Part shown: piece after piece, positions 3,578 through 42,355 of the stretch
How positions within the stretch are numbered: position 1 is the stretch's first letter
Layout of the letters: each line of letters opens with the position of its first letter
Assembly (NCBI GenBank): GCA_016933155.1
Contig: JAFGBM010000007.1
Span: forward strand, 186,001 to 250,000
Length of the DNA: 64,000 nt
From: Demequinaceae bacterium
Lineage (GTDB): Bacteria > Actinomycetota > Actinomycetes > Actinomycetales > Demequinaceae
Direction: 5' to 3'
Notes under the pieces: generated by a model
Database searches by the model: none
The model's input: the letters and a program-made list of their open reading frames with translations, nothing else
Told to the model about the DNA's origin: nothing
Made by a program: the position numbers and the translations under genes

Positions 3578-5131
3578 CTATCGAGAGGGGGTTACTCCCC
3601 TCAGCCTTGAGGCAAGGGACACGGCTCTCACGATGGCGGCAGCCTTGTCCCTGGTCTCTTGGGCTTCACGGACCGGCACGGAGTCCGCCACGATGCCGGC
3701 CCCGGCCTGGACGTGGGCCGTCCCTTCCGCGATGTAGGCGGTTCGGATGGCGATGGCCGTGTCCATGTTCCCGGTGAAATCGAAGTACCCGACGGCACCC
3801 CCGTAGAAGCCCCTGCGGGCGGGTTCCACCTCATCAATGAGGGCGATCGCCCTGGGTTTGGGTGCCCCGGACAAGGTCCCCGCGGGAAAGGTCGCCGTGA
3901 AGGCGTCAAGCGGCCCGTAACGTCCCTCCAGCGTTCCGACGACCGTCGAGCAGATGTGCATGATGTGGCTGTATCGGTTGACTGCCATGAAGTCGACCAC
4001 CTCGACCGTGGTCGGGTCGCAGACCTTGGCAAGGTCATTTCTGGCCAGGTCGACGAGCATGATGTGTTCAGCTCGTTCCTTGGGGTCGGCGAGGAGTTCC
4101 TGCTGGAGCGTGACGTCTTCGTCAGGGGTGGCACCGCGAGGCCGTGAGCCTGCGATGGGGAAGGTGAGGACCCTTCGATCCTTGACGGCGACCATGGACT
4201 CCGGACTCGCCCCGACCACCGCGAAGTCCCGGCCCCCCGCGTCCCGCAACTGGAAGTAATACATGTAGGGACTCGGGTTGAGGGTCCTGAGCACCCGGTA
4301 GACATCCAGCGGAGATGCCGCACACTCGACGTCGAACCTCTGGGAGGGGACAACCTGGAACACCTCCCCGTCCCTGATGGCCTCCTTGCAGACGTCGACC
4401 ACCCGCTCGTACTCGCCCTCTGGGGTCCGATGCGAGACCCTCGGTTCCGATGGCTCTCCGTCAAGGACCGACACCTCCGTTGGGGGTGCCGATTCGAGGG
4501 CCGCCTCCATCGCATCCAGCCTGGCCACCGCATCGATGTATGCCGCCTCGATTCCGGTCTCCTTGGCGTCGGCGTTGACGGCGTTCGCCATGAGCCACAC
4601 GCTGCCATCGTGGTGGTCGATGGCGGCCAGATCGGTCGCGAAGAGGAGGTGGACGTCCGGGACCTCGAGCTCCCTGGGGGCATCCGACGGCAGAGTGGGT
4701 TCCCATTGGTGGATGATGTCCCAGCCGAGGACGCCGACCAGTCCCCCAGTTAACGGAGGAAGACCCCGAATCTTCTCGGATTTCATTTCCTCTAGGGCTT
4801 CTCGGATGGCCTCGAGAGGCGGCCCATCGTGAAGGCCGACGGGAACATCCCCCGTCCATCGGCCCTCCGATCCGGTGGCCGTGAACTGCGCCCGCGAGCG
4901 GACGCCGACGAAGGAGAACCTTGCCTTGGCCCCGTCGGGCTCCGCAGATTCTAAGATGAACGTCCCCGGGGCCTGAGCGGCGAGGGCACGGTAGACCGCT
5001 ACCGGGGTGACCCCATCGGCCAGGAGTCTTCTGACGACCGGAACAACCCGGTGGCTGGACCCCAGGGCGACGAACCCCTCAAGGGTCGGCCAGGTCCTTC
5101 CCCAATCGAGGGAGACCGGATCGTCAAGCAT
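3578..5131 (-). CDS. trpE: anthranilate synthase component I
   Basis: Converts chorismate and ammonia to anthranilate, the first committed step of tryptophan synthesis. 517 residues from the ATG at 5131, which overlaps the hisI stop by eight bases and has AGGGAGAAGG just upstream. The N-terminal half has the ILESAEPDG sequence expected for Trp feedback binding. The C-terminal chorismate-binding domain contains [26 protein letters not shown] and [13 protein letters not shown] 97-bp gap separates it from trpC. I see no leader peptide or attenuator there. Confidence 0.97.
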
Positions 5132-35369: not shown

Positions 35370-36089
35370 CTATGGTTCCGAAACGATCTCGATGGAGACG
35401 GCGATGACAGTGACGACCTTGGGCACGTTGTCGATGAAGGCTCCGGTGATCTGTAGAGTTTGGCCCGCGAGGGTGTCTGCCGGGTGCTCTTCAAGGAAGG
35501 GCTCCAGGACCAACTCCTCGGCCTTGTAGTTGAATTCCAGCGAGACCTGCAGGTACTCGACCTGGTTGAGGAACTGGTTGAGGTCCACGAACCCGGTCAC
35601 GTCCCTGAGCGCCGTCTGAGTCCCCGGGACGATCTGGAGTTGAACGGTGTAGTCCGGTGACAGTCCATCGACCGTCAGCGCGACCGTCTTGCCATTCTCC
35701 GACACCTCTCCCGCGACCGCGGTCAGGATGACCGGATAGGAGTAGGGGTTGTAGGGATTGGAGGAGTTCCCGTATTCCTCCTTCGCCTGATCCTCGTCCT
35801 CTTCGATGGCCGCCAGAACCGTCTGGAGGTCCACCGCCGTATCGAGGATCGCGGGCATGGTGACGGACTCGAAGTACGTTTCCGCGTATTCCTTTGCGTC
35901 GAAGACATGTCTGCCGGTGTCGTCTTCGATGCTGACCACCTTGGTCGATAGGGCCGCGGCAATCACGACGAGAACTAGGGCCACCCAGAAGACGCTCCGG
36001 CCGGTGGTGAGTCGTCGGAAGACCGACATCTGGTCATGGCCTGTTGCTTTGACTGAAGGCTTCACGGGAATCCTCTCTTTCGAACTCAT
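35370..36089 (-). CDS. DUF2291-like membrane-anchored exported protein
   Basis: 239 residues from the ATG at 36089, which overlaps the kinase stop (ATGA). One N-terminal transmembrane anchor (SVFWVALVLVVIAAALST, about 32-50); the rest should be extracytoplasmic. Sequence features FDAKEYAETYFESVTMPAI and GSSNPYNPYSYPVILTA-like Asn/Pro/Tyr stretch followed by a beta-rich domain fit the DUF2291 family, which is seen beside RbsABC-type sugar transporters but has no proven function. Possibly assists the binding protein or transporter. Confidence 0.7.
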   Translation of the reverse strand: MSSKERIPVKPSVKATGHDQMSVFRRLTTGRSVFWVALVLVVIAAALSTKVVSIEDDTGRHVFDAKEYAETYFESVTMPAILDTAVDLQTVLAAIEEDEDQAKEEYGNSSNPYNPYSYPVILTAVAGEVSENGKTVALTVDGLSPDYTVQLQIVPGTQTALRDVTGFVDLNQFLNQVEYLQVSLEFNYKAEELVLEPFLEEHPADTLAGQTLQITGAFIDNVPKVVTVIAVSIEIVSEP

Positions 36090-37612
36090 GTCTGCCCGCC
36101 TCGATCCGCGGCCTGCTCTGGTTGCGATGCGGCTAGACTCGCTCCCCGCGCCCTTGCGACGGCTCCGAGCCATGCGGCCCGACGCTCGGTCGCTGTGTCG
36201 GTGTCCAGTCCTGGGTGTGTCGTCCCGGCCGAGTCGGAGAATGTCGCGGCATCGGAGTCCGACCACAGGCCAACCGAGGACCCGGCTAGGTACGCGACCC
36301 CGAGGGCGGAGAGGTCCGCAACAGAGGAGGCCACGACGTCGCGTTGGCTGAGATTTGCTTGGAGCTGCATCAACCAACTGTTCGACGAGGGACCCCCGTC
36401 GGCGAGGATGGTGTGAATGCGCCGCCCGCTCCCCGCGTCGGCGGCGACCAGAACGTCCTCGATCTGAAAGGCGATCGATTCGAAGGCGGCGCACGCGAGG
36501 TCCGCCTCCGAAGAACCCAAGGTCAATCCCGCCATGATTCCGAGGGCCTCGTCATCCCACCACGGCGCGCCCAGGCCCGCGAAGGCGGGCACCAGGAACA
36601 CCCCATGAGAATCGCCGGCCTGCTCCGCGAGGGCTCCGAGTTCTGAGGGAGTCTTCGACAACAACTGCGCCAGCCATACCACGGTCGCCCCGGTGGACAG
36701 GATGTTCCCCTCGAACGCTTGAACCGGCTTCCCGAAGTCCCAGGCGATGGTGCGAACCAACCCCTCGCCGGGATGTGCTCCAGGCGCGAGAAGTCCCATG
36801 ATCGAGGACCCGGTCCCGTAGGTGACCTTGACGGCCCCCGGTTCACGGACTCCATGGCCGTAGAGGGCGGCGTGGGAATCCGCCAGGACTCCGGAAATGG
36901 GCACACCCGAGGGGACTCCCTCCACGTCCTTGATGGGGGCTGTATGCTCCTGCGACGATGCGATCCGAGGCAAAGCCTGTCGGGGTATCCGGAAGAGTTC
37001 CAGCAGCGAGTCCTCCCAGTCGCCGCTGTCCAGATTCAGCACCTGCGTGCGGCTCGCGTTCCCCGTTTCGATCCGATGCTCCCCTGTCAGGGAGTGGACA
37101 ATCCAGGAATCCACCGTTCCGAGTGCGATCTTCCCGGCCTCGGCGCGCGACCGGTCGGGATCGATCGAATCGAGCAGCCAAGCAAACTTGAGAGCCGAGA
37201 ACATGGGATCGATCGGAAGCCCGGTGATGGCGCGCACCCGGGCCTCGTGGCCTTCTGCCTGAAGACGCTGAGCCTCTCCCTTGGTCCGCCGGTCCTGCCA
37301 GCCCAACATCGGGCCCAGAGGTTCAAGGGTCTGACTATCCCAGGCAAGGGCGGACTCCCGCTGGCTGCTGATCCCCATCGCCACGATCGTCCCGGAGACC
37401 TTCGAGGCCACCTTCTGGATGGCTGACTTGACGCTCGAAAGCAGTTCGAGGGGGTCCTGCTCCACCCATCCGGGCTCCGGATGCGTCTGCCCGAGCGGAA
37501 CCGAGGCTTGCCCCACGACCTTTCCGGAGGCGTCGACGACGATGGCCTTCGTGGAACTCGTTCCCTGGTCGATTGCGACAACAAGCGCGTCGGCCGGCAT
37601 GCGGTCAGCCAT
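36086..37612 (-). CDS. FGGY-family carbohydrate kinase
   Basis: 508 residues. ATP/phosphate motifs: ALVVAIDQGTSSTKAIVVD (1-25) and KVTYGTGSSIMGLL; the FGGY signatures fall in GVPISGVLADSHAALYGHGV and ILADGGPSSNSWLMQLQANL. It resembles glycerol/xylulose kinases. In an operon with an isomerase and a split transketolase it should phosphorylate a ketopentose; D-apulose kinase is one candidate, L- or D-xylulose another. AGGAGG precedes the ATG, and the gene overlaps the transketolase C-subunit by 8 bases. Confidence 0.9.
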   Translation of the reverse strand: MADRMPADALVVAIDQGTSSTKAIVVDASGKVVGQASVPLGQTHPEPGWVEQDPLELLSSVKSAIQKVASKVSGTIVAMGISSQRESALAWDSQTLEPLGPMLGWQDRRTKGEAQRLQAEGHEARVRAITGLPIDPMFSALKFAWLLDSIDPDRSRAEAGKIALGTVDSWIVHSLTGEHRIETGNASRTQVLNLDSGDWEDSLLELFRIPRQALPRIASSQEHTAPIKDVEGVPSGVPISGVLADSHAALYGHGVREPGAVKVTYGTGSSIMGLLAPGAHPGEGLVRTIAWDFGKPVQAFEGNILSTGATVVWLAQLLSKTPSELGALAEQAGDSHGVFLVPAFAGLGAPWWDDEALGIMAGLTLGSSEADLACAAFESIAFQIEDVLVAADAGSGRRIHTILADGGPSSNSWLMQLQANLSQRDVVASSVADLSALGVAYLAGSSVGLWSDSDAATFSDSAGTTHPGLDTDTATERRAAWLGAVARARGASLAASQPEQAADRGGQT

Positions 37613-38573
37613 GGCCGATCGCCTCCTTCGCCGAATCCACGATTGCCTCGGGAGTCAGGCCGAAGTGTTCCAGCAGGTACTCCGTGCTTCCCGTGGGGGC
37701 GAACTCCGTGAGGCCGAGGATTCGGACCGGGGACCGGGCCCCATCCTCGAGTTGGGCGACCACGGAGGCCACCGCGGCTCCGAGCCCCCCGGCGACATTT
37801 GCTTCCTCCGCCGTGACGATCGCCCGTGTTTGACGCGCAGCCACCTGGATGGCCTCAACGTCGAGCGGCGCAAGGTAGACGGCATTCAGAACCCTCGCGC
37901 TCACCCCCTGGGCTTCGAGGATGTCCGCAGCGTCGAGGGCCCGAGACACCATCGTCCCCGTCGCGATGATGGTCACGTCCTTCCCGTCGCGGATGCCCTG
38001 AAAACGACCCCGATCAAGGGACATGCCGGCGGGGGTGACGTCAGGAACCTGGAATCGTCCGACACGGATGAACATGGGCCGAGGGTCATCGACGGCCGAC
38101 CGAATCGCCTGTCGGGTCTGGAGGCGATCAGCAGGCACAACGATGTCCAATCCGGGTATCGCGCGGAGCCACGACAGGTCTTCGACGGAATGGTGGGTGG
38201 GTCCGAGTTCGCCGTATGCCATCCCCGGGCTCATCCCGCACAGGATGACCCGGTGTTGGCTATAGGCGATGTCGGCCTTGATCTGCTCCAGCCCCCGCCC
38301 CGTCAGGAAGGGGGCCGCCGCGCAGACGAAGGGGATGAGTCCGGAACTCGCCAGCCCCGCACCCACTCCGATGAGATCCTGTTCCGCGATTCCCACGTTG
38401 ATCAGTCGATCAGGGAAATCCTTCCGGAAACCGACAAGGTTGCTGGAGCCAACGGAGTCATTGCACACGGCGACGATGCGATCGTCGTGCGCGGCTAGTT
38501 CGATGAGTTCTTCCGCAAAGGCCTTCCTGTTGTCGTAGGAGGGTCGTTCGGTTGCCACCGTCTCCGTGATCAT
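37605..38573 (-). CDS. transketolase C-terminal subunit (split type)
   Basis: 322 residues from the ATG at 38573 (MITETVATERPSYDNRKA), overlapping the N-subunit stop by four bases. It holds the pyrimidine-binding domain (NVGIAEQDLIGVGAGLA with the catalytic Glu; FVCAAAPFLTGRGLEQIKADIAYS) and the C-terminal transketolase domain (TIIATGTMVSRALDAADIL). Separate N and C subunits are typical of catabolic or DXS-like transketolases, including apulose-4-phosphate transketolase AptB. Together with its partner it forms one enzyme. Confidence 0.93.
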   Translation of the reverse strand: MITETVATERPSYDNRKAFAEELIELAAHDDRIVAVCNDSVGSSNLVGFRKDFPDRLINVGIAEQDLIGVGAGLASSGLIPFVCAAAPFLTGRGLEQIKADIAYSQHRVILCGMSPGMAYGELGPTHHSVEDLSWLRAIPGLDIVVPADRLQTRQAIRSAVDDPRPMFIRVGRFQVPDVTPAGMSLDRGRFQGIRDGKDVTIIATGTMVSRALDAADILEAQGVSARVLNAVYLAPLDVEAIQVAARQTRAIVTAEEANVAGGLGAAVASVVAQLEDGARSPVRILGLTEFAPTGSTEYLLEHFGLTPEAIVDSAKEAIGHG

Positions 38574-39502
38574 GCGAGTTCCGCCAATGCTCGTTTCGTC
38601 TCTTCTGCGCTCGGTACCTTGTGGTGCCACTCGACGCGGTCCTCCATAAAGGAGACGCCCTTGCCCTTCGTCGTGTGGGCGATGACGGCGACCGGTTTGC
38701 CCGTCGTAGACGGAAGGAAGGCGTCGAGCAGGGCTGAGTAGTCATGCCCATCGGCCTCCCTCACCTCCCAGCCGAAACTCGTCAGTTTGTCGGCCAAGGG
38801 TTCGAGGCGGTTGGTCTCTTCCGTGCGGTCACCCTGTTGAAGGAGATTGCGATCGATGACGATGGTCAGGTTGTCCAGGCCGCGGTGGGCGCCAGCCATG
38901 AGAGCCTCCCAGTTGCTGCCCTCCTGCATCTCCCCATCGCCGAGAACGACGAACACCCGCGAAGGCGACTTCAGAAGCTTGGCCGCGATGGCTTGGCCCA
39001 CTCCGATGGGCAGGCCGTGTCCGAGCGGACCGGTGTTGGACTCGACGCCGGGAACCTTCGTGCGATTGGGATGACCATTGAGCGCGGACAGCGGCTGCAT
39101 GAAACTCATGAGTTCAGCCGGTGCGAAGTATCCGGCATATGCCAGCGTGGAGTAGAACGAGGCGGCACAGTGCCCCTTGCTCAGGATGAACCGATCGCGA
39201 TCGGGCCATTCGGGGTTTTCTGGGTCGATGCGCAGAACCCCGATGAACAGCGTGGTGAGGATGTCGGTCACGGACAGGTCTCCGCCGATGTGTCCCATTC
39301 CGGCATGGGAAATCATGGTCAGGACGGATCGACGGGTGTGGGTCGCTCGCTCACGAAGGATCTTCTGCTTGCCTTGGGAGTCCGCCGATTCGAAGGACTC
39401 GCGCGCACGGCGCCACACGCCTGCCTCGGTGACGTCACTGTCCAGCATGCTGTTCCATTCTTCGAGATACGGTTGTAGCGACGAGGGCGCCGCTCCCATC
39501 AT
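38570..39502 (-). CDS. transketolase N-terminal subunit (split type)
   Basis: 310 residues, first gene of the leftward operon. TPP-pyrophosphate domain: HAGMGHIGGDLSVTDIL, RFILSKGHCAASFYSTL, LGHGLPIGVGQAIAAKLL and the TPP motif GDGEMQEGSNWEALM...DRNLLQQGDRTEET. The ATG at 39502 is followed by a second ATG; an ATG at 39448 is also possible, and all have weak Shine-Dalgarno sites. The substrate would be a keto-sugar phosphate made by the FGGY kinase (AptA-like if the pathway is D-apiose). Confidence 0.92.
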   Translation of the reverse strand: MMGAAPSSLQPYLEEWNSMLDSDVTEAGVWRRARESFESADSQGKQKILRERATHTRRSVLTMISHAGMGHIGGDLSVTDILTTLFIGVLRIDPENPEWPDRDRFILSKGHCAASFYSTLAYAGYFAPAELMSFMQPLSALNGHPNRTKVPGVESNTGPLGHGLPIGVGQAIAAKLLKSPSRVFVVLGDGEMQEGSNWEALMAGAHRGLDNLTIVIDRNLLQQGDRTEETNRLEPLADKLTSFGWEVREADGHDYSALLDAFLPSTTGKPVAVIAHTTKGKGVSFMEDRVEWHHKVPSAEETKRALAELA

Positions 39503-40583: not shown

Positions 40584-41378
40584 TCACGCGACCGCTTGCC
40601 AGCGAAACGCGTCTCCTAACCTCTCAATACGGCCGAGACCGGGCATCGGGAAGTGGCATTGCGCCAGAACCAAGCCCTCGTCTGCCGCCCGACCCAAGAG
40701 CGCCCGGCGACTCGCGACCACATCCTCCGGGAGTAGTTCGAACGAGGCGACCCACTCGGGATGTTCGATGTAGACGATGTTGAGCACGGCGTCGCCGGTG
40801 TGAAGCACCCGGCCATCGATCAGGACCGCCAGGTGTCCCGAAGAGTGGCCGTGGGAATCGATCGCCTCGACGCCGGGGACGATCTCCCCCTCCCCCTCGA
40901 GGAGCACGACCTGATCCTCGAGGGGCTTGAGGATCTCGCGGAAATTCGCGGCGTGGTCGGGCTCCGGGTTGTCGGGATCCATCCAGTGCTCCCACTCCCG
41001 GCGGGTGAGGAAGATCTTGGCGTTCGGGAAGGCCGGGCTGCGATCGGCCCCGACGCAGCCCCAGTAGTGGTCGGCGTGTCCATGGGTCACGACGATCGTG
41101 TCTATGGACGTAGGGTCGATCCCCTCCTCCTGGACGGCATCCTTCACCCCGTCCGTCCACCCGAGTCCTCCGGGATCGACGAGGACGCGGTTCGTCCCGG
41201 TGTCGACGAGAAGGGCGTTCGTGTGGAATCGGATGGGGTCTGCCAGGCCGTGGCGGGCGAGGGCGCCGGCGCGCTCCCCCGGGTCGGCATTCGCGAACAA
41301 CACCTCCGGACTCATGTCGAAGCCGCCCGTATCCATGACGACGTATGTGAGATCGCCGATCCGAATGCGCTCAGCCAT
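40584..41378 (-). CDS. metallo-beta-lactamase-fold hydrolase
   Basis: 264 residues. The metal motif THGHADHYWG (HxHxDH), a His in DSHGHSSGHLAVL, an Asp in RVLHTGDAVLN and a final His in LAQCHFP are all present, so the dinuclear zinc site looks complete. The layout resembles lactonase/glyoxalase-II-like enzymes. The substrate is unknown; proximity to the sugar region may be accidental, as it is convergent with the ribokinase. Leaderless-type start. Confidence 0.88.
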   Translation of the reverse strand: MAERIRIGDLTYVVMDTGGFDMSPEVLFANADPGERAGALARHGLADPIRFHTNALLVDTGTNRVLVDPGGLGWTDGVKDAVQEEGIDPTSIDTIVVTHGHADHYWGCVGADRSPAFPNAKIFLTRREWEHWMDPDNPEPDHAANFREILKPLEDQVVLLEGEGEIVPGVEAIDSHGHSSGHLAVLIDGRVLHTGDAVLNIVYIEHPEWVASFELLPEDVVASRRALLGRAADEGLVLAQCHFPMPGLGRIERLGDAFRWQAVA

Positions 41379-41390: not shown

Positions 41391-41414
41391 CTAGCGGCAC
41401 GGGGCTCCAGAATC

Positions 41415-41543
41415 GCCCCGCAGACAACCAGTGCCGAGATGGGCACCGAAACCGGCACCCACCGTCTGCAGGGGAACACCAAGTGCCCCTGCCGACCACC
41501 AGTGCCGAGATAGGCACCGAAACCGGCACCCACCGTCTGCAGG
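41415..41543. repeat. head-to-tail pair of a 58-bp palindromic repeat
   Basis: Unit A 41415-41472 and unit B 41485-41543 share a 46-base core with one mismatch (GATGGGC against GATAGGC). Starts are about 70 bp apart. Unit A has outer arms GCAGAC / GTCTGC and inner arms GTGCCG / CGGCAC, so it can fold into a nested hairpin; unit B keeps the inner arms and has a decayed left outer arm. The pair lies in the 170-bp spacer before the convergent-reading rRNA methyltransferase end. Looks like a REP/MITE-type element, not CRISPR. Confidence 0.85.
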
Positions 41544-41548
41544 AATGC

Positions 41549-42355
41549 TCAGGATCCCCGGGTCGCCCAGAAGGCCACGGCCGAGGCGGCCGCGACGTTG
41601 AGGGAGTCCACCCCGGACCCCATCGGAATGGTGACCATGACATCGGCCCCCTCCATGGCCCCCCGCGACAGTCCGTCTCCCTCCGCCCCGAGCATGAGGG
41701 CCAGCCGCTCGGGCAACCCTCGCGCCACGAACACGTCCAGCGGGACGGCCGCATGATCCAGGGCGAGGGCGGCCACGACGAACCCCGCATCTCTCAGATC
41801 GTCGAGCCCACCGGGCCACGGCTCGAGCCTGGTCCAGGGCACCTGGAAGACCGTCCCCATCGAGACCCGGACTGATCTGCGATAGAGAGGGTCCGCGCAC
41901 CTCGGCGAGATCAGCACCCCCTCGACCCCCATCGCGGCCGCAGACCGGAAGACCGCCCCGACGTTCGTGTGATTGACGAGGTTCTCCAAGATCGCGATCC
42001 GCCGAGCGCCTCCGATCACGTCCTCGACCGCCAGCGGGTCCGGCCTGCTCATCGCCGCCAGCGCCCCCCGGTGCACCAAGAACCCGGTCACCCGTTCGAG
42101 GACATCCTCCGATCCCACGAGCACGGGGACCTCCGGCCAGCCCGAGACGAGGGGCTCAAGGGTGGGCAACCACTTCTCCGAGCACAGGAACGACCTGGGC
42201 TCGTGCCCCGCCCCGAGGGCCCGGGCGATGACGGGCCTGCTCTCGGCGATGTACAACCCCCGAGACGGCTCGACCCGGCGCCGGAGGGCCACGTCCGTGA
42301 GGTCGCGGTAGTCCTCGAGCGCCGGGTCGTCGATGTCGCCGATGCGGCGGATCAC
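41549..42355 (-). CDS. TrmH/SpoU-family RNA 2-O-ribose methyltransferase
   Basis: 268 residues from the GTG at 42355, four bases after the SPFH stop; the longer frame to the right is only Arg/Ser-rich read-through. N-terminal substrate-binding domain (RGLYIAESRPVIARAL, typical of the 23S rRNA enzymes). SPOUT motifs: ILENLVNHTNVGAVFRSAAAMG (motif 1), LALMLGAEGDGLS (motif 2) and VTIPMGSGVDSLNVAAASAVAFW (motif 3), forming the SAM knot. It acts on rRNA or tRNA; the exact site is not readable. Confidence 0.92.
   Translation of the reverse strand: MIRRIGDIDDPALEDYRDLTDVALRRRVEPSRGLYIAESRPVIARALGAGHEPRSFLCSEKWLPTLEPLVSGWPEVPVLVGSEDVLERVTGFLVHRGALAAMSRPDPLAVEDVIGGARRIAILENLVNHTNVGAVFRSAAAMGVEGVLISPRCADPLYRRSVRVSMGTVFQVPWTRLEPWPGGLDDLRDAGFVVAALALDHAAVPLDVFVARGLPERLALMLGAEGDGLSRGAMEGADVMVTIPMGSGVDSLNVAAASAVAFWATRGS

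Follow-up and report, generated by a model that had tools for sequence, protein, structure and literature searches.

What kind of element is the palindromic repeat that stands head to tail between two genes of a Demequinaceae bacterium, and which enzyme, if any, could spread it? In the window, by which we mean the whole 64,000-nucleotide stretch of DNA that was analyzed, the repeat occupies positions 41412-41548 on the minus strand as two 66-bp palindromic units with a period of 71. Two copies of 57 nt (41416-41472 and 41487-41543) were found with 93% identity at a spacing of 71, so the pair described in the original prediction is real; its unit length of 58 bp gives way to a better boundary of 56 bp, or 66 bp when the conserved 5-nt flanks are included. 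On the minus strand, unit 1 with its flanks spans 41483-41548 (56-bp core, 41488-41543) and is matched at 64 bits (E 7.7e-12, filters off) by model R2 and at 78.2 bits by R1, a covariance model from ten units of this genome; unit 2 spans 41412-41477 (core, 41417-41472; R2, 55.4 bits, E 6e-10; R1, 77.6 bits), and the 5-nt junction between them (41478-41482) reads TTGGT on that strand. Direct reading bore out the finer anatomy that had been proposed: the copies differ by one base in a 46-base core, the arms are nested, GCAGAC/GTCTGC outside and GTGCCG/CGGCAC inside, and the outer arms are perfect in the first copy and decayed in the second, where the left arm is GCCGAC. The position is non-coding, again as proposed, with the pair lying between a SpoU rRNA methylase family gene upstream (41549-42355, minus strand; PF00588, E 3e-31 over 41552-42355) and a metallo-beta-lactamase superfamily gene downstream (40584-41378, minus strand; ORF; PF00753, E 5.3e-17). 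The stop codon of the methylase gene is 41549-41551, and unit 1 starts 0 nt after it. Elsewhere in the window (36086-39502), adjacent minus-strand ORFs resemble, by eye, an FGGY kinase and both halves of a split transketolase.

Within the window the pair stands alone: no further 56-mer recurred 57-399 bp away with at least 52 matches, and beyond the two units R2 gave no clear match in the 64 kb, everything else scoring E 0.48 or worse with filters off. Rfam 15 held no covariance model that matched at the repeat at E up to 1, in line with its having been called uncatalogued. The fold z-scores were -3.49 and -2.52 for the units and -5.44 for the pair on the plus strand, and -3.52, -1.57 and -7.05, respectively, on the minus strand, so that one unit folds there no better than 16 of 200 of its own shuffles. 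By reading, neither the window nor the A2 flanks show a T-run behind the stems; an intrinsic terminator was therefore set aside as a candidate, the GC-rich hairpin itself being present.

The assembly of this genome (1.885 Mb, 15 contigs) was examined by DNA and covariance searches. At least seven repeat loci were found, each with a start-to-start spacing of 71, among the best 150 of 2926 candidates, which were those scored, a limit that could hide copies of greater divergence. The loci, in which all genes but SpoU and metallo-beta-lactamase are named from a reading of the translations, are the window; contig C11 downstream of clpX; contig C13 between ribF and rpsO, upstream of thyX, and, at the end of the contig, behind tyrS; and contig C1 at its start and at 99.6 kb. 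Five of the seven sit behind a gene co-oriented with the unit. The expectation of a REP-like, duplicated, multicopy element is thus borne out, all loci being tandem, and the pair is not unique in the genome, a circumstance in which the original prediction would have seen a local duplication only. Units within pairs are 89-100% identical, versus 56-84% between loci (five loci compared), which points to homogenization inside each locus. The same difference would suit a local tandem duplication without wider meaning, a reading that the number of loci in the genome and the family-wide distribution described below reduce to a negligible probability.

Nor are two units the rule, as had been supposed. 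The C1 locus at 99.6 kb includes part of a third unit, and two contig ends fall within arrays, the start of C1 interrupting an earlier unit and the end of C13 the second one (G000 C1:1-37 and C13:176520-176567), so that copy counts at these two loci cover the assembled part only; the idea that units always come in exact pairs was dropped on these grounds, and short arrays, some of which break the assembly, appear to be the rule instead. A CRISPR array, which had already been judged inapplicable, was rejected on layout: the unit is one long palindrome, and a similar 5-nt junction recurs at all loci, namely, TTGAG, CTGAG, CTGAA or TTCAG in place of the TTGGT of the window.

The element is dispersed well beyond this genome. 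At E<=0.1, R1 found matches in 31 of 47 genomes of the family, its own included, several of them with one weak match only, and an order survey with R2, in which 17 candidates were scored per genome, returned 31 of 297 genomes at E<=0.001 (23 in the family and 8 in other families, the latter with 1-4 matches each). The copies fetched from Demequina are mostly single intergenic hairpins; with a crude gene caller, 42 of them were placed between convergent (14), co-directional (20) or divergent (4) genes, beside one neighbor (3), or within a called gene (1). The ten units of this genome alone showed no covariation (0 of 20 pairs changed on both sides). Among 47 aligned copies, which had been found with a structure-based model, 16 of 26 stem pairs carried changes on both sides, and 140 cells were changed on both sides, compared with 49.4 +/- 8.1 in shuffles (none of 500 reached the observed value) and at most 42 in slid controls; coarser measures were less clear, the number of both-side pairs being reached by 33 of 500 shuffles and that of pair types by 48 of 500. 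The flanks of the A2 consensus are GCGCC and GGCGC, with columns 1-5 pairing with columns 62-66 in many rows, and some rows read GCGTC.

Paired changes in the stem raise the prospect of an element that acts at the RNA level only, either as a terminator or as an mRNA 3'-end stabilizer under selection. Its placement agrees with this, copies lying at the 3' ends of genes, with that of the window directly at a stop codon, and convergent and co-directional sites prevailing. G.T mismatches also outnumber A.C ones, by 49 to 16 in the Demequina units and by 27 to 9 in those of this genome, an excess that is partly circular, since the model chose the strand. Against it count the lack of a T-run after the stems and the fact that the arms are common to the loci of one genome and different between genomes. 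Three of the four loci of the sister genome G001 coincide in position with loci of the window's genome (clpX, tyrS and ribF-rpsO), whereas the arms mostly differ genome-wide, with CCTGCGGKC in place of CCTGCMGAC. Sites shared under changed arms suggest that the sites are old and that their sequence changes in concert. The elements of G001 (L066, L067, L068 and L069) are, moreover, nested, two left arms being followed by two right arms ~51 bp apart (by eye), rather than side by side. The locus of the window itself is not traceable by orthology, as the metallo-beta-lactamase neighbor finds nothing better than weak matches (28-32% identity), in 10 of the 46 other genomes of the family, and the sister genome has no match. 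An element directly behind clpX was found in none of 28 fetched Demequina clpX regions, with one weak partial match (E 0.011) ~1.2 kb off. Taken together with the evidence from nuclease genes presented below, we consider a purely RNA-level element unlikely.

Short palindromes that recur many times between genes, frequently as dimers and behind genes, are known as REPs, which are common bacterial repeats, and RAYT genes are flanked by repeats of their own; the RAYTs, each distinctive and single-copy, have a phylogeny largely congruent with that of the species, and they are the only enzymes tied to REPs in the available text of the cited REP literature (PMC3116915, PMC8266576, PMC3733652). Di Nocera et al. 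2013 report that CGTC-tagged REPs are without a dedicated transposase and that REPs in general are located mostly downstream of genes; the placement seen here agrees with the latter (PMC3733652). The Y1 transposase (PF01797) was found at E<=0.001 in none of the 47 family genomes, whereas the control search succeeded in 5 of 14 named genomes, and no GTAG or CGTC tag stands at the end of the element. Membership in the RAYT/REP system was rejected for these reasons, and the RAYT-like transposase that had been anticipated did not turn up. A classical REP/REPIN or MITE mobilized by a RAYT or an insertion sequence would account for dispersed intergenic palindromes, dimers and arrays, but the result for Y1, the one enzyme class searched for, and the missing GTAG tag leave it very improbable.

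What the comparison of flanks between copies did reveal was one gene that repeatedly adjoins the element, encoding a Vsr-type PD-(D/E)XK nuclease (DUF559/MTES_1575) of ~300 residues with an AbiEi-like N-terminal part. The original prediction, that a transposase elsewhere could mobilize the repeat, therefore holds insofar as there is a gene bearing the repeat at its end and fails as to a transposase of known class. DUF559 is a domain of unknown function according to its Pfam entry. PF04480 scored above the cut-off in all seven proteins scanned and PF18741 in three of the seven; AbiEi profiles (PADLOC) matched all four proteins scanned, at E 1.8e-8 for that of this genome and 1.5e-10 to 2.9e-4 for the three others; and among solved structures there was one weak match, 3hrl (E 0.0082). 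Matches to the nuclease are present in 46 of 47 family genomes, 176 in total. Six residues of catalytic type (E197, D229, E240, D242, H247 and R259, in the numbering of the protein of this genome) are kept in all 110 nucleases compared, and to judge from this conservation the proteins look active. This genome has one nuclease gene at E<=1e-8 (C11:51480-52385), convergent with clpX; the repeat array begins 29 bp past its stop and is found on that side only. The 64-kb window holds no copy of the gene (best E 0.62).

The association between nuclease and palindrome, established within one bacterial family (Demequina and relatives), was quantified at 110 of the 176 matches, comprising 80 paralogs fetched with 800 bp on each side and 30 loci from the tally. 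A palindrome of the window's family lay within ~200 bp of the nuclease gene (R2, E<=0.05) in 26 of the 80, 18 having it on both sides and 8 on one; these are not unbiased rates, as the 80 were drawn mostly from genomes already shown to have elements and about a dozen were known beforehand to be flanked. Among the remaining 30 loci, the positives were the gene of this genome, that of the sister genome and two weak cases. The palindromes stand ~1.03-1.15 kb apart, start to start, across the gene. Irrespective of the palindrome family, a matched pair of upstream and downstream flanks with a local score of at least 44 was present at 58 of 110 nuclease loci, and 52 had no pair above this threshold, which was set (at 48 and then at 44) after the data had been seen. 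In 55 of the 58, the start of the downstream copy lies between -3 and +53 relative to the stop, and in 11 this copy begins at the stop codon or extends into it. The end of the upstream copy precedes the protein match by 86-350 bp.

No matched flank pair was found in 318 other genes, i.e., 0 of 78 at related loci and 0 of 240 in 400 kb of two Demequina genomes; the control genes are partly mutual orthologs (clpX regions among the 78 and two syntenic genomes for the 240), and their upstream stretch was measured from the called start codon, whereas that of the nuclease genes was measured from the start of the protein match. The set of 78 also held 14 nuclease genes, 4 of which scored at least 44 under the control measure. 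In a cross-locus null, 35 of 1200 pairs reached a score of at least 50, all of them at least 60 and probably from overlapping or orthologous loci, compared with 45 of 80 true pairs. On the RNA-level reading, the flanks of the nuclease would be the terminators of the gene and of its upstream neighbor; one and the same paralog-specific palindrome on both sides of a gene, seen at none of the 318 others, speaks against this. At several of the loci L189-L215, many of which lie beside clpX in Demequina, the nuclease gene is bordered by long inverted repeats of a more complex form than a simple palindrome; in some of them, for example L199 and L215, a motif occurs, by eye, twice in direct orientation within each end.

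The AbiEi-like part of the protein admits another reading, in which the palindromes are operators for autoregulation by this domain and the copies scattered elsewhere make up a regulon or serve to organize the chromosome. AbiEi antitoxins bind inverted repeats, and one copy does lie upstream, ending 86-350 bp ahead of the protein match. The other copy, however, is at or just past the stop codon, few solo palindromes lie between divergent genes, and a pure regulator would not need the nuclease residues that all 110 proteins have kept. We hold this operator model to be improbable, slightly more so than the RNA-level one.

The flank repeats differ between nuclease paralogs, and not all are simple palindromes. 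Eleven paralog palindromes were joined as one query and searched in eight genomes, and the counts given for them are among the 150 matches listed out of a larger number. Each occupied 2 to 40 places in its genome of origin, and ten also occurred at a distance from their gene. The totals per palindrome, followed in parentheses by the number not adjoining the gene, were 40 (38) for G006, 19 (17) for the palindrome of G010 that belongs to the window's family, 13 (11) for G013, 10 (8) for G015, 5 (3), 5 (2) and 3 (1) for the three of G032, 4 (2, one doubtful) for G019, 3 (1) for the second family of G010, 2 (1) for G022 and 2 (0) for G036, the last occurring only beside its gene. P3, P5, P7 and P8 had 1-2 places elsewhere and P4 had two. 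A single match listed, in the case of G022, lay outside the genome of origin; the palindromes are, in other words, specific to paralog and genome. Solo copies of three other families, at 22 sites in 20 fetched regions, lay between convergent (9), co-directional (8) or divergent (1) genes, beside one neighbor (1) or within a called gene (3), the neighbors being called with a crude gene caller, and the protein of this genome, used as the query, had no nuclease match near any of the 22 sites at E<=1e-3. At L325:1001-2302, two solo palindromes of G006 are separated by ~1.24 kb in which the nuclease of this genome finds no match, possibly as the remnant of a unit.

The repeat of the window is, in our judgment, probably a REP-like, intergenic palindrome present as a tandem dimer, its genome-wide populations being matched to AbiEi-like/DUF559 nuclease genes in the fashion of REPs and RAYTs. 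That the nuclease also drives the spreading of the palindromes is a more tentative proposition, whose chances we put a little short of even. The process could run as follows: (i) the AbiEi-like N-terminal part would recognize its cognate palindrome, extruded as a hairpin or cruciform; (ii) the nuclease domain would nick or cut at the palindrome; (iii) repair would copy the palindrome to new sites or homogenize existing copies; (iv) the copies that survive would be mostly those at gene 3' ends, where a hairpin may be harmless or even useful as an mRNA 3' end; and (v) in the genome of the window, tandem expansion with the period of 71 would be added, with units within one locus being homogenized.

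With REPs and REPtrons this arrangement shares the short, intergenic, multicopy palindrome and the enzyme gene flanked by its cognate repeat, the layout being that of a REPtron (PMC3116915, PMC8266576). It differs in the enzyme, an AbiEi-like/DUF559 nuclease rather than an HUH Y1 transposase, and in the absence of a GTAG tag, and also in stems of ~20-26 bp, in contrast to the 6-13 bp given for the GTAG families, and units of 56-66 bp, in contrast to the 20-50 nt given for REPs. CGTC REPs and TIRtrons are likewise palindromic repeats (PMC3733652), but here the stems are long, the GCGYC flank is in most rows base-paired with GRCGC instead of forming an unpaired CGTC tag, and a candidate enzyme exists. 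Other repeat classes compare as follows. Small repeats that have the same ends as an enzyme-bearing unit are known as MITEs, and the units of palindrome, gene and palindrome of ~1.03-1.15 kb seen here are at most candidate parental elements; the target-site duplications that had been expected were not noticed in a non-systematic look at one site differing between two species. MIRU-VNTR of mycobacteria are also short tandem intergenic units, whereas the present ones are strong palindromes of a dispersed family and mostly single-copy in relatives.

One DUF559-domain protein that has been studied is VsrA of Caulobacter, a Vsr-like nuclease of the PD-(D/E)XK superfamily that is active on its own chromosome, elicits an SOS response when its partner methylase is missing and has T:G mismatches at methylated sites as its proposed substrate; palindromic repeats are not mentioned in the available portion of that report (PMC12907096). 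In a survey of HEPN conflict systems, the MTES_1575 REase, of the same domain family (PF18741, PF04480), forms part of giant predicted defense proteins, with no link to repeats in the text available (PMC3710099). The tandem repeat of a Borg-element MTES_1575 protein is made of amino acids and has no bearing on the present case (PMC9879509). In the open-access literature, to the extent that its text was available, no link between this nuclease family and dispersed repeats was found, including in PMC3710099, PMC9879509, PMC12907096 and PMC10459684. We propose, as an idea nearly as probable as its opposite, that a second class of REP-type system, independent of HUH enzymes, is served by AbiEi-like/DUF559 nucleases; each paralog would recognize its own palindrome, spread it through the chromosome and homogenize it, and the pair would co-diverge between genomes. 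Were this true, REPs reported without a dedicated transposase might have partners of this kind, the REP way of life would have arisen more than once, with an unrelated nuclease family as evidence of it, and AbiEi-like DUF559/MTES_1575 proteins would gain a testable substrate; genomes with several nuclease-palindrome sets would allow specificity to be tested by swapping.

On a tree of the 110 nucleases, being flanked by a palindrome of the window's family required 8 changes, compared with 26.0 in shuffled labels (none of 500 as low), with near-copies contributing to the difference and, of two weak cases, L188 counted as flanked and L212 not. The nuclease genes of this genome and of its sister stand apart from the palindrome-bearing Demequina clade, and in this genus only one side of the gene carries the repeat, which leaves geometry and sequence as the grounds for the match there; a change of partners in the palindrome-nuclease set may be the reason for the separate position, as may fast evolution of the genes. 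Twelve of the 20 genes of the palindrome's clade are at one common locus under a same-side rule, and the rest fall into six further groups, in one of which (G020) a gene of the shared neighborhood is on the other side, possibly through rearrangement. The nuclease genes thus appear to be mostly inherited in place. Plasmid and phage searches with the protein of this genome gave no match at E 1e-5; a plasmid search with one Demequina protein gave five weak matches and that with another gave none. Four of the five were examined and had other architectures and no flank repeats, which suggests that the palindrome link may belong to the present architecture only. A scan of IMG/VR for the nuclease returned two partial relatives.

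Turnover at individual sites was followed between two Demequinaceae genomes, G029 and G022, over ~200 kb in blocks of 80-94% identity. No transposition event was caught in this two-species comparison, and four of five G029 elements were at the same sites in G022. The fifth site, between convergent genes (L304:6883-6947 versus the matching L308 stretch at ~3700-4220), has a palindrome of the window's family in G029 and, by eye, a sequence resembling the palindrome of a different nuclease in G022, which indicates that element sites persist and that their occupants can change.
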